A stretch of DNA of 64,000 bases from Halalkalicoccus sp. CG83 (GTDB lineage: Archaea > Halobacteriota > Halobacteria > Halobacteriales > Halalkalicoccaceae): contig NZ_JAZDDH010000001.1 of assembly GCF_037081715.1 (NCBI RefSeq), positions 434,001-498,000 of the forward strand, in the 5' to 3' direction. Of the stretch, positions 10,655-25,235 are shown in pieces. Both the position numbers and the translations under genes were made by a program. The notes below the pieces were generated by a model that was given only the letters and a program-made list of their open reading frames with translations, was not told the origin of the DNA and did not search any database. The first letter of the stretch is position 1. Each line of letters starts with the position of its first letter.

Positions 10655-10676
10655 TGGGACCGCCCGGATTTGAACC
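10655..10676 (-). repeat. Detached copy of the tRNA-Pro 3' end
   Basis: These 22 bases are identical to the last 22 bases of the tRNA-Pro gene (10773-10794 in plus coordinates) and lie 118 bp downstream of them on the same strand. They cover the acceptor 3' strand and the 3' half of the T arm. Beyond that point the T stem cannot form, so this is not a working tRNA. Confidence 0.85.
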
Positions 10677-10772
10677 CCGGTCGTTTCGTTCGCTGGCGCT
10701 CACTTCACACCCTGGATCAAACCCGTTCGCCGTCCAGTTCTGCTGCTTGTGAGTGTACTCGCAGCAGAGACA

Positions 10773-10845
10773 TGGGACCGCCCGGATTTGAACCGGGGTC
10801 AACGGCACCCAAGGCCGCAAGGATACCAAGCTACCCCACGGTCCC
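10773..10845 (-). tRNA. tRNA-Pro (anticodon TGG)
   Basis: A 73-nt cloverleaf on the minus strand. The acceptor stem GGGACCG pairs with CGGTCCC, followed by discriminator A; the CCA end is not encoded. The anticodon stem GCGGC/GCCGT encloses loop CTTGGGT, so the anticodon is TGG, reading proline CCA. The T arm CCCGG-TTCAAAT-CCGGG is intact. A partial copy of its 3' end lies downstream at 10655-10676. Confidence 0.95.
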
Positions 10846-17175: not shown

Positions 17176-17200
17176 AAGGTCCAGGTGCGAGAATTGAACC
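17176..17200 (-). repeat. Detached copy of the tRNA-His 3' end
   Basis: These 25 bases are identical to the 3' end region of the tRNA-His gene (17290-17314) and lie 114 bp downstream on the same strand. They cover the acceptor 3' strand, T-arm 3' half and three trailing bases. The copy cannot form a tRNA. A nearby motif (cttcaattctt, about 17240-17250) could pair with it as a hairpin. Confidence 0.85.
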
Positions 17201-17292
17201 TCGGTCGCGTCACTCACTTCGTTCGTTTCGCTCCCTGCTTCAATTCTTTCCGGTCGGACTTTTCGCTCCTCACGTCCGTTCGTCGCGAAAAG

Positions 17293-17366
17293 GTCCAGGT
17301 GCGAGAATTGAACCCGCGTCTCAGCCTCCACAAGGCTGAAGGATGGGCCACTACCCCAACCCGGAC
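17293..17366 (-). tRNA. tRNA-His (anticodon GTG)
   Basis: A 74-nt cloverleaf on the minus strand. The extra 5' G (G-1) pairs with discriminator C73, the identity mark of tRNA-His. The acceptor stem TCCGGGT/ACCTGGA follows, and the anticodon loop CTTGTGG sits between CAGC and GCTG arms, giving anticodon GTG. The T arm is GCGGG-TTCAATT-CTCGC. A TATA-like stretch (cgtattttagcc, about 17390-17401) lies upstream. A partial copy of the 3' end is downstream at 17176-17200. Confidence 0.95.
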
Positions 17367-21092: not shown

Positions 21093-21863
21093 TTACCAGT
21101 ACGCCTTCGCGGCCTTGAAGCGCGCGGCGACGTCGTCCCAGTCGACGACGTCCCACCAGGCGTCGACGTATTCCCCCCGTCGGTTCTCGTACTGGAGGTA
21201 GTAGGCGTGCTCCCAGACGTCGAGCCCCAGCAGCGGCGTTGCGTTCTGGTGAGCGAGGCGGTTCTGGCTCTCGACCTGGCCGACGATCAGCTGATCGGCC
21301 ACCGGTTCGTAGAACAGCCAGGCCCAGCCGTTGCTCTCGACGGCCTTGGCCGCCTCGCTGAACTCCTCGCGAAACCGCTCGACCGAACCGAACTCCTCGA
21401 TCAACCGCTGGCAGAGCGTTCCTTGAGGATCGCCGCCGCCGTCGGGACTCATGTTCCGCCAGAAGATCGAGTGGTTGACGTGACCCGAGAGATTGAACGA
21501 GAGGTCGCGCTTCGCACGTTTGATCCCCTCGAAATCGTCGGATTCGCGCAGCCCCTGGAGCCGTTCGAGGGCGTCGTTCGTCCCGTCGACGTAGCCCCGG
21601 TGGTGCGCCGAGTGGTGCAGTTCCATGATCCGGGCGTCGATCGTCGGTTCGAGCGCGTCGTACGCGTACGGCAGGTCGGGAAGCGTGTACTCGCCCGCCT
21701 CGTACGACCCATCGAGGCCGGCGTCCGACCCCGGTTCCTTCTCGTCCCCGCTCGCGCCGACGCCCTGAACGCCCGCACCTGCGAGCGCGCCGGCGCCGGC
21801 GAGGCCGAGCCCCTGCAGGACCCGGCGTCGGTCGAGTTCGATGATCGGGATGTCCCGGCTCAT
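21093..21863 (-). CDS. Superoxide dismutase (Fe/Mn) with Tat signal peptide
   Basis: A 256-residue Fe/Mn superoxide dismutase preceded by a twin-arginine signal: DRRRVLQGLG, then the hydrophobic stretch LAGAGALAGAGVQGVGA (about residues 11-37), and an acidic Gly-rich linker. The catalytic domain has all metal ligands: His in LHHSAHH, His in HVNHSIFW, and Asp and His in LDVWEHAYY. It should fold with its metal in the cytoplasm and then be exported. It starts 1 nt after the stop of a cytoplasmic paralog and is about four-fifths identical to it by eye, so it arose by tandem duplication plus gain of a signal. Confidence 0.92.
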   Translation of the reverse strand: MSRDIPIIELDRRRVLQGLGLAGAGALAGAGVQGVGASGDEKEPGSDAGLDGSYEAGEYTLPDLPYAYDALEPTIDARIMELHHSAHHRGYVDGTNDALERLQGLRESDDFEGIKRAKRDLSFNLSGHVNHSIFWRNMSPDGGGDPQGTLCQRLIEEFGSVERFREEFSEAAKAVESNGWAWLFYEPVADQLIVGQVESQNRLAHQNATPLLGLDVWEHAYYLQYENRRGEYVDAWWDVVDWDDVAARFKAAKAYW

Positions 21864-21864
21864 C

Positions 21865-22503
21865 TCACTCGTCCCGTTCGTCTGAGTCTCCGTGGTCGTC
21901 CTCGACGCGGGCTCGGGCCTCGTCGTAGCGCGCGCTCACGTCGTCCCAGTCGACGACGTCCCACCACGACTCGACGTACTCGCCGCGTTCGTTCTCGTAC
22001 TGGAGGTAGTAGGCGTGTTCCCAGACGTCGAGCCCCAGCAGCGGCGTCGCACCCTGATGGGCGAGGCGGTTCTGGCTCTCGACCTGGCCGACGATGAGTC
22101 GGTCGCCGACGGGCTCGTAGAACAGCCAGGCCCAGCCGTTGCTCTCGACGGCCTTAGCCGCCTCGCCGAACTCGCTTCGGAAGTCGTCGAACGAGCCGAA
22201 CCCCTCAGCGATCGCGTCCGCGAGCTCGCCGCCGGGTTCGCCGCCGCCGTCGGGACTCATGTTCTGCCAGAAGATCGAGTGGTTCACGTGACCCGAGAGG
22301 TTGAACGAGAGATCGCGCTTGGCGTGCTTGATCCCCTCGAAATCACCCGACTCACGCATCCCTTCCAGCTCGTCGAGGGCGGCGTTGGCGCCGTCGACGT
22401 AGCCCTGGTGGTGCGCCGAGTGGTGCAGTTCCATGATGCGGGCGTCGATCGTCGGTTCGAGCGCGTCGTACGCGTACGGCAGGTCGGGTAGTTCGTAGAC
22501 CAT
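21865..22503 (-). CDS. sod: Superoxide dismutase (Fe/Mn), cytoplasmic
   Basis: A 212-residue Fe/Mn superoxide dismutase converting superoxide to peroxide and oxygen. Metal ligands lie in LHHSAHHQGY, HVNHSIFW and LDVWEHAYY. The ATG at 22503 gives MVYELPDLPYAYDALEP, the usual beginning; the longer upstream frame is not protein-like. The C-terminus has a short acidic tail (DDHGDSDERDE). It heads a two-gene operon with its Tat-exported copy, with no gap between them, and is transcribed away from the gene at 22610. Confidence 0.93.
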   Translation of the reverse strand: MVYELPDLPYAYDALEPTIDARIMELHHSAHHQGYVDGANAALDELEGMRESGDFEGIKHAKRDLSFNLSGHVNHSIFWQNMSPDGGGEPGGELADAIAEGFGSFDDFRSEFGEAAKAVESNGWAWLFYEPVGDRLIVGQVESQNRLAHQGATPLLGLDVWEHAYYLQYENERGEYVESWWDVVDWDDVSARYDEARARVEDDHGDSDERDE

Positions 22504-22609
22504 CTCCTCCGATTTCGATGGCTCGCCACTTGGAGGCACACACCTGCACATGAAAGGGGAGGTGATTCGAGGGCGACGGGTCTTTGTACGCCGATCCGCT
22601 ACCGACGAC

Positions 22610-22894
22610 ATGGTCGATCGGCGACGCGTGAACCGGTTTCTGCGCTCGAAGATCCGGGAGGCGGGTCGGCAGTACGAGCGGGCCCGTGGCTCCTCTCGGA
22701 ACGGTCGTGGCGCCGACCGCGAGGGACCTCCACGTGATGAGTCCGGTCGCGTGAGGATCGTCTGCCGGCGCTACGCGGAGAAACGCGCCGTTATGCTCGA
22801 CGAGGAGGACCGCCCGGCCTGTTTCGATGCCGATCACCCCGATTGTGAGGGTTGCGTCGAGGACCTCCACGCCGACACGATCGAGACCTGGTAG
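22610..22894 (+). CDS. Small conserved haloarchaeal protein with Cys motifs (possibly DUF7091)
   Basis: A 94-residue protein starting MVDRRRVNRFLRSKIREAGRQY, basic at the N-terminus and acidic after. The second half carries VCRRYAEKRAVMLDEEDRP and ACFDADHPDCEGCVED, with Cys residues spaced as C-x7-C-x2-C, which may bind metal. I recall such proteins as a haloarchaeal family of unknown function (possibly DUF7091; the number is from memory). The start at 22610 is chosen over 22550 because a TATA-like tctttgtac (22581-22589) precedes it. It is divergent from sod. Confidence 0.7.
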   Translation: MVDRRRVNRFLRSKIREAGRQYERARGSSRNGRGADREGPPRDESGRVRIVCRRYAEKRAVMLDEEDRPACFDADHPDCEGCVEDLHADTIETW

Positions 22895-23995: not shown

Positions 23996-24092
23996 GTGCC
24001 CTAGTTGCCGAGCAGTGGTCTAAACGCTTGCGAACCGATTTCTCGTTGCCTCCGTTCTCCCGCGCTGAACCTGCAACCGGAACCGTGAGTCG

Positions 24093-24132
24093 TCACGCCA
24101 GCGGCGAGCGTTCGACCACCCTGCCGTCCGAC
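24093..24132 (-). repeat. Diverged copy of the radical SAM gene tail (copy C)
   Basis: On the minus strand this stretch reads as DGRVVERSPLA and a stop, matching the true end DGTVVERTPLA of the gene at 24243. It lies exactly 150 bp beyond the real stop codon, with about 80% of bases alike over 36. No longer open frame leads into it. Confidence 0.65.
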
Positions 24133-24192
24133 CTCTTTCGGTACGGGATCGCAGAGCGACCCGCTCACCGGAAAACGTCGACGAAAAGCCGC

Positions 24193-24216
24193 CTACGCTA
24201 ACGGCGTTCGCTCGCG
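24193..24216 (-). repeat. Diverged copy of the radical SAM gene tail (copy B)
   Basis: On the minus strand this reads RERTPLA and a stop, matching the true tail ERTPLA of the gene at 24243. It lies exactly 50 bp downstream of the real stop. With copy C it makes three tail-like units at 0, 50 and 150 bp. Confidence 0.55.
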
Positions 24217-24242
24217 GAAAAACCCGCACCAAAAACGGCTGA

Positions 24243-25235
24243 TCATGCCAGCGGCGTTCGTTCGACGACGGTACCGTCGTAGGTCGGATACTGCTCGACG
24301 ATCTCGCCGTTCGCGACGTCGCCCTCCTCGACCATCTCCTCGAGGAGCCACCACGCCAGTTCGACGTGCTCGGACTTCGCCGTGTAGAACTCCTCGGGGA
24401 CGCCGAGTTCGCGAAGCCGCGTCTCGGGTTCGCGGGTCTTCCCGTAGACGAGCGTGCCGTCGTCGGTGATCTCGTCGAACTCTCGTCTGACGGTTCGGGC
24501 CATCCGCTTGAGCCGGTTTCGGTGCTGGGCTGCGTCCTTGAACACGCTCGTACAGAAGTAGACCTTCGGGTGATCGCCCATCTCCTCGAGGATCGCCTTC
24601 GAGCCCTCGACAGCGCTCATGTGGCCGTCCTCGAGCTCGTAGCCCTCCTCCTGCATCCGGCGGTAGTTGCCGTCGCTCATCTCGAACTGGTTGACGTTAC
24701 AGAACTCGGCAGCCCCCTCGTCGAGGAAGTCGAGGAACTCGCTCTCGGAACGGATCCCGGGGATCTCGAACGCCGGCGTCAGTCCCTCCTCGCGGGCGAC
24801 GTAGAGGATCTCCTCCCACTCGGTACCGTGGAGTTCGCCCCACTGCTCGAACGGCGGGTGGAAGCGGATCTCGTCGAGACCCGCCTCCGAGAGCCGGCGC
24901 ATGTTCTCACGGCCGCCGGTGATTCCGGTGTAGAGGTGGGTGTGGTGGTCGTCGCCGAACTCCTCCTTCAGCAGGCGGAGATACCGGCAGGTCCGGTTCA
25001 TCGCCTCCTGGGGCTCGCCTCCCGTGATCGAGGTCCCGAGCGCCTCCATCCGTCTCGCCTCCTCGAGGACGTCATCGTCGGTCTCGACGGGCCGCTCGTT
25101 CGCGTACACCTGGGTGACGTTCTTGCGGTTCTCCCCCAGGGGACAGTAGAAGCAGTCGCGCTGGTCGCAGTAGCCGTAGACGAACAGTACCATCTTGCCG
25201 CCCTTGGCGCACTGCTCACAGCCCTTCGAGATCAT
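24243..25235 (-). CDS. Radical SAM protein (COG2108 type)
   Basis: A 330-residue radical SAM enzyme of the archaeal group related to pyruvate formate-lyase activators. The cluster motif is unusual: Cys23-x4-Cys28-x2-Cys31 (CDQRDCFYC) rather than C-x3-C-x2-C, preceded by another pair, C6-x2-C9. The SAM-binding GGEP motif is in TSITGGEPQEA. Residues 75-240 look like a TIM barrel with YTGITGG, RFHPPFEQW and CNVNQFEMSD. The reaction is unknown. The C-terminal tail is repeated twice downstream. It is divergent from the DUF373 gene. Confidence 0.85.
   Translation of the reverse strand: MISKGCEQCAKGGKMVLFVYGYCDQRDCFYCPLGENRKNVTQVYANERPVETDDDVLEEARRMEALGTSITGGEPQEAMNRTCRYLRLLKEEFGDDHHTHLYTGITGGRENMRRLSEAGLDEIRFHPPFEQWGELHGTEWEEILYVAREEGLTPAFEIPGIRSESEFLDFLDEGAAEFCNVNQFEMSDGNYRRMQEEGYELEDGHMSAVEGSKAILEEMGDHPKVYFCTSVFKDAAQHRNRLKRMARTVRREFDEITDDGTLVYGKTREPETRLRELGVPEEFYTAKSEHVELAWWLLEEMVEEGDVANGEIVEQYPTYDGTVVERTPLA

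Follow-up and report, generated by a model that had tools for sequence, protein, structure and literature searches.

Copies of a gene end behind a haloarchaeal radical SAM gene as the probable trace of two insertions of a dispersed hairpin element

In the genome of Halalkalicoccus sp. CG83, a radical SAM gene is followed on the same strand by two short sequences that resemble its own end. The gene lies in a stretch of 64,000 nucleotides (contig NZ_JAZDDH010000001.1, positions 434,001 to 498,000), here called the window. The question is how these copies came to stand behind it. The gene ends in DGTVVERTPLA with a stop at 24243-24245 on the minus strand, and the C-terminus DG[TQ]VVERTP[LV]A is kept in nearly all haloarchaeal orthologues compared. 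The nearer copy, tail B, reads RERTPLA with its stop at 24193-24195, exactly 50 bp past the gene stop. The farther copy, tail C, is 36 nt long and reads DGRVVERSPLA with its stop at 24093-24095, exactly 150 bp past the gene stop. With a probability of about 0.83, a hairpin element has inserted twice behind this gene, each time with duplication of the gene tail, and the array is the aged remainder of these events. The element is named E here and has the form TTTTTGGTSCAGATTTTT-hairpin-AAAAAGGTSS. Read along the gene, the order in the window is tail A (the present gene end), the mostly deleted first element E1, tail B, the second element E2, tail C and the old flank (Table 1).

Table 1. Positions in the window of the radical SAM gene, its tail copies and the elements assigned between them.
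Feature	Position	Strand	Basis
Radical SAM gene	24243..25235	-	ORF and Pfam Radical_SAM match at cut-off
Tail A, present gene end (last 36 nt of the radical SAM gene)	24243-24278	-	
E1, remnant of the first element, GTTTTTGGTGCGGGTTTTTCCGC, truncated, joining tail B at GAGCG	24214..24236	-	Core motif match, 2 mismatches
Tail B, gene-end copy including the TAG stop (24193-24195) and 4 nt beyond	24189..24213	-	25/25 nt against H. paucihalophilus
E2, hairpin element abutting tail C directly	24129..24183	-	Covariance model, genome search, fold
Tail C, probable displaced original gene end, DGRVVERSPLA and stop	24093..24128	-	29/36 against tail A
Putative old downstream flank, beyond tail C	24050..24088	-	28/39 ungapped match against L012

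Both copies had been picked out by a sequence-only reading of the window, and both are real. Tail C matches the gene end at 29/36, whereas 5000 dinucleotide shuffles of the 300 bp behind the gene yield no match above 24/36. Tail B looks like a weak match to the window's own gene end. It resembles every relative's gene end more closely than it resembles tail A and carries the genus-type end. Together with the four nucleotides past its stop, it agrees at 25 of 25 nt with the end of the actual gene in Halalkalicoccus paucihalophilus; against this end, the shuffled spacer gives at most 13 matches. This 25-nt match also rules out that tail B is an ordinary GAGCGAAC haloarchaeal hairpin. The same reading had proposed that the copies were once coding or came from a coding paralog. 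They are former gene ends, but a paralog as their source is not supported, as the radical SAM gene is single-copy and a search of its own genome found no second one.

Tail C is most likely the displaced original end, because the DNA behind it matches the DNA behind the real gene in relatives; the DNA between tails A and C would then be inserted. The match to the downstream DNA of the real gene in L012 is ungapped, lies at an equal offset from the stop and covers 28 of 39 positions. The scores (17.5 for L007 and 17.0 for L012) lie above the shuffled 99th percentile of 16.0. The match is modest, and the present end A is also similar to the relatives' downstream flank. The equal 50-bp steps look like a coincidence, because copies in other species sit about 91-200 bp away. 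A CRISPR-like acquisition, suggested by the regular steps, is rejected on the irregular spacing elsewhere.

The element between the tails has a consistent layout. TTTTTGGTSCAGATTTTT is followed by a GC-rich stem, AAAAAGGTSS, a gap of about 0-10 nt and then the tail copy. E is about 50-150 bp long, contains no gene and has imperfect inverted repeats at its ends. Nineteen E sequences align to one long helix, in which paired changes are common; the outermost pair is C-G in 13 and G-C in 6. Covariation in this helix is 0.375; shuffling gives 0.083 +/- 0.021 and slid partners give no more than 0.074. In nine E-bearing loci searched with the Rfam 15 covariance models, only tRNAs scored above the gathering score. 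In L199 (1943-2090), L204, L209 and L210, a longer E contains two extra internal hairpins, GGTCCACCGTGAG..CTCACGAGCCTTCG..CGAAGACAGATTTTT. It looks as if the common short E were a deletion derivative of this longer form.

A covariance model (R1) was built from 19 E sequences of many loci, none of them from the window. E2 is its sole significant match in the 64 kb (34.1 bits, E-value 7e-6), is recovered again in the genome search and folds with a z-score of -3.6. For the E1 core motif, the reversed-motif control gives no matches, and a truncation of the same form as E1 is present in Haloferax (L078). As E1 survives only as a remnant and E2 has diverged, the local case draws in part on the pattern at other loci.

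In these other loci, E and the tail copies occur together. Among 76 radical SAM orthologue loci with a readable gene end, scored at a fixed tail-copy threshold, a tail copy is present at 11 of the 14 loci with E and at none of the 62 without it (p = 6e-11). This value overstates the independence of the loci, since the species are related, though seven genera are involved. L068 is a twelfth E-bearing case, which has a shorter coding part and yet a 34/34 repeat. The same kind of hairpin lies between gene end and copy in Haloferax, Halobacterium, Halomarina, Halosegnis, Halorussus and one Natrialbaceae genome.

The association extends to other genes. Seventeen of 27 distinct E cores have a flanking direct repeat scoring at least 15.5; at random positions, a direct repeat scoring at least 15 is found 3.4% of the time. 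In a sample of 86 further E copies, 27 lie between direct repeats (score at least 15), which are mostly the 3' end of the upstream gene. About two thirds of this sample have no detectable flanking repeat, so that E must often insert without duplicating its target or the trace must often decay. The repeats are 17-228 bp long. At L290, the longest duplication beside E comprises about 228 bp of a gene's 3' end (score 157) and far exceeds the usual target-site duplication. The right-hand repeat begins within 12 nt of E in 24 of 27 cases, usually 4 nt after it. In nearly all 3'-end cases, E is oriented in the sense of the duplicated gene. The duplication often stops about 18 nt or less from the stop codon, a distance that is indicative, as ORF calls are rough in GC-rich DNA. 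Among E copies without repeats, many have the stop codon of an opposing open frame 0-3 nt away, and one E copy has a 43-bp duplicate of a gene start. The same gene ends carry E in several genera. From their translated ends, the other genes with E between end repeats are presumably those for a thiolase, an oxidoreductase, ETF alpha, PheT and an acetyltransferase.

Two of these genes provide filled and empty sites. At the oxidoreductase locus of Haloferax, where the genes of the species compared are 97-99% identical, the site is empty in three species, three others carry one E with a tail copy and one carries two. In the filled sites, the distal copy retains the flank of the empty site and the proximal copy runs into E. 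The Haloferax sites show that E was inserted together with a tail copy and that the original tail was thereby moved downstream. The acetyltransferase site is empty in one close species, and others have E insertions. The duplicated stretch starts at GGCCCGTACG or TACGTGTCG, depending on the species, and because these starts differ the insertions are independent.

E is also dispersed within genomes. In a single genome, E copies 96-99% identical to one another occur at unrelated loci with unrelated flanks, and therefore E has dispersed. The genome-wide statistics are based on model matches and their retrieved flanks. The model search detects E in 13 of 19 sampled Halobacteriales genomes, mostly with 7-28 copies each, and 21 copies in the Halalkalicoccus sp. 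CG83 genome. In the rest of the phylum (about 100 genomes) there are only two weak single matches. The E core matches this genome 15 times at two mismatches or fewer and three other haloarchaeal genomes 18 times, with no reversed matches in either search. Many of these copies stand between repeats of the ends of other genes. Viral contigs contain three exact core matches, all in one unrelated coding sequence and without the remainder of E. When 864 kb (the window, 400 kb of its own genome and 400 kb of a congener) were scanned de novo for repeats, chiefly in-frame coding repeats and tRNA tails came up, and the DNA scanned contains no exact-core E. From its dispersal and its presence or absence at given sites, we infer that E is probably itself mobile. 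A 72-nt subtype in G095, G127 and G089 (for example at L316-L319 and L333-L335) is near-identical at many loci per genome, and no flanking repeats were found beside it. This form may have spread recently and may insert without duplication.

The sequence-only reading had suggested that repeated replacement of the gene's 3' end could leave such an array, which is partly right. Repeated events are supported by the relative-like flank of tail C (28/39) and by the genus-type end of tail B; their cause is most probably the insertion of E with tail duplication and not a paralog. That reading had also named unrelated DNA in relatives and shuffle-like tail scores as grounds against an array, and the array withstood this check.

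According to the preferred reading, the arrival of E behind a gene would be accompanied by duplication of 17 to about 230 bp at the end of that gene. After insertion, E would follow a complete gene end, and the displaced original end would begin about 4 nt beyond the right border of E. The junction on this side is fixed, and the duplication varies in length. The likeliest mechanism, at slightly under even odds, is copy-in at a break or at a pair of staggered nicks near the gene end, in which fill-in or repair synthesis would duplicate the stretch between the cuts. Long duplications of varying length speak against the action of a DDE transposase, of a site-specific integrase or of Cas1-type integration. 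To our knowledge, they match no known transposase or integrase and no known prokaryotic transposition chemistry. It is possible, though less likely than not, that E represents a new class of mobile element that copies in with the host gene's 3' end, in the sense direction and near the stop, for instance by way of an RNA or single-stranded intermediate that is joined to gene ends. If true, E would use a chemistry unlike that of known transposases, integrases and Cas1-type enzymes.

The main rival to copy-in is recombination import, which is possible but less probable. A gene end with E from another strain or species, as DNA or cDNA, would recombine on one side and be joined illegitimately at the right end of E, and the recipient's own gene end would remain downstream. 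Import would account for proximal ends that are often unlike the empty-site end at and after the stop (TAACCTAAG compared with TGAGCTGA), for the identity of tail B to another species' gene end over 25 nt, and for E stems that vary between loci yet are common to the species at one locus. However, the junction on the right always coincides with the right end of E, and a random donor fragment would not produce this. In addition, recent duplications are identical within a genome, including its own variants (43/43 at L183 and 68/68 at L280).

That the gene end and its terminator were simply duplicated in tandem or by slippage, with no mobile element involved, is improbable. Tandem units of tail and E do occur in L061 (100 bp), L186 (92 bp) and L196 (91 bp), but relatives with empty sites (L201, L203, L213, L212 and L055) have no E at all, and single insertions run into the old flank without a second E. 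An array of attachment sites, in which the gene's 3' end served as attB of an integrase element and the copies are attL and attR remnants left after its loss, is very improbable. It is in keeping with a complete gene end and a displaced original tail, as at integrase targets, and with similar copies at tRNA 3' ends in the same genome. It is not congruent with duplicated stretches of varying length (17-228 bp) whose start points differ between insertions at one gene, nor with the many unrelated genes affected, and what is inserted is a conserved, structured element some 50-150 bp long rather than the remnants of varied elements. Chance resemblance in GC-rich DNA is negligible: GAGCGAAC-type words are abundant in haloarchaeal intergenic DNA and tail B overlaps such a stretch, but 25/36 is reached in none of the 5000 shuffles against 29 observed, tail B matches exactly over 25 nt, and the same pattern recurs across many species and genes.

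As an insertion of E with tail duplication, the pattern shares features with several known systems. MITEs share their ends with a parent transposon. Like them, E is a short non-coding element with imperfect inverted repeats and flanking direct repeats; MITE duplications are short and typical of the family, whereas those of E vary from 17 to 228 bp. RAYT-mobilised REP and BIME sequences are likewise extragenic hairpins scattered close to the 3' ends of genes, and their stems covary. Unlike E, REPs cause no target duplication that we know of. Integrase elements at the 3' ends of tRNA or protein genes also keep a complete end and displace the original as a direct repeat, and can form arrays. These elements are kilobases long and contain an integrase and a fixed att core, whereas E is gene-free, about 50-150 bp long and has no constant core, as the duplication starts differ at one gene. 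The SMR-A/B elements of Haloquadratum walsbyi are about 80-110 bp long, non-coding and dispersed, with inverted repeats and without a known transposase (PMC3119063). E resembles them in being short, non-coding and dispersed, with inverted terminal repeats. SMRs have no target duplication, and their targets are mostly IS605-type transposons and PATEs (PMC3119063), whereas 27 of 86 E copies are flanked by long gene-end duplications. A search of the open-access literature gave no description of an element such as E, the closest being the SMRs (PMC3119063), and E is apparently undescribed.

E has T-runs on both strands and adjoins stop codons. T-stretches end transcription in Haloferax (PMC7237163). 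E resembles a two-way terminator and may be retained for that function. By leaving a new end, the element and the displaced old end, E reshapes gene 3' ends and provides a readable record of doing so. It accounts for C-terminal duplicates between haloarchaeal genes that would otherwise be puzzling. Most of the haloarchaeal genomes sampled have E, among them genomes of the laboratory genus Haloferax, and the filled and empty sites in close, culturable strains make the insertion mechanism directly testable.

Tail copies are also present at tRNA genes. Each of the two tRNA genes in the window is followed, 90-94 bp downstream, by a copy of its own 3' tail (tRNA-His at 17292-17365, copy at 17176-17200; tRNA-Pro at 10773-10845, copy at 10655-10682; both genes on the minus strand). 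In one sample, 11 of 30 tRNA genes of the same genome have a tail copy, compared with 3 of 29 in the congener, and the presence of copies differs between the two Halalkalicoccus genomes. In one Haloferax the count is 16 of 35, and some of these are true tandem tRNAs. The spacers (for example 17201-17291 and those of L169, L148, L161 and L163) are unlike E and consist of a hairpin followed by an anti-tail complementary to the tail copy; the anti-tail therefore varies with the tRNA. The complementary pairs are GGATTTGAA and TTCAAATCC, for tRNA-His AGAATTGAA and TTCAATTCT, and for tRNA-Arg GGGATTCGAA and TTCGAATCCC. These spacers are possibly a second, tRNA-specific family of tail-duplicating elements.

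The window also contains a pair of adjacent, highly similar ORFs on the minus strand (21093-21863 and 21865-22611), which are tandem genes. By eye, they are presumably superoxide dismutase-like, and the first of the pair has an apparent twin-arginine signal.
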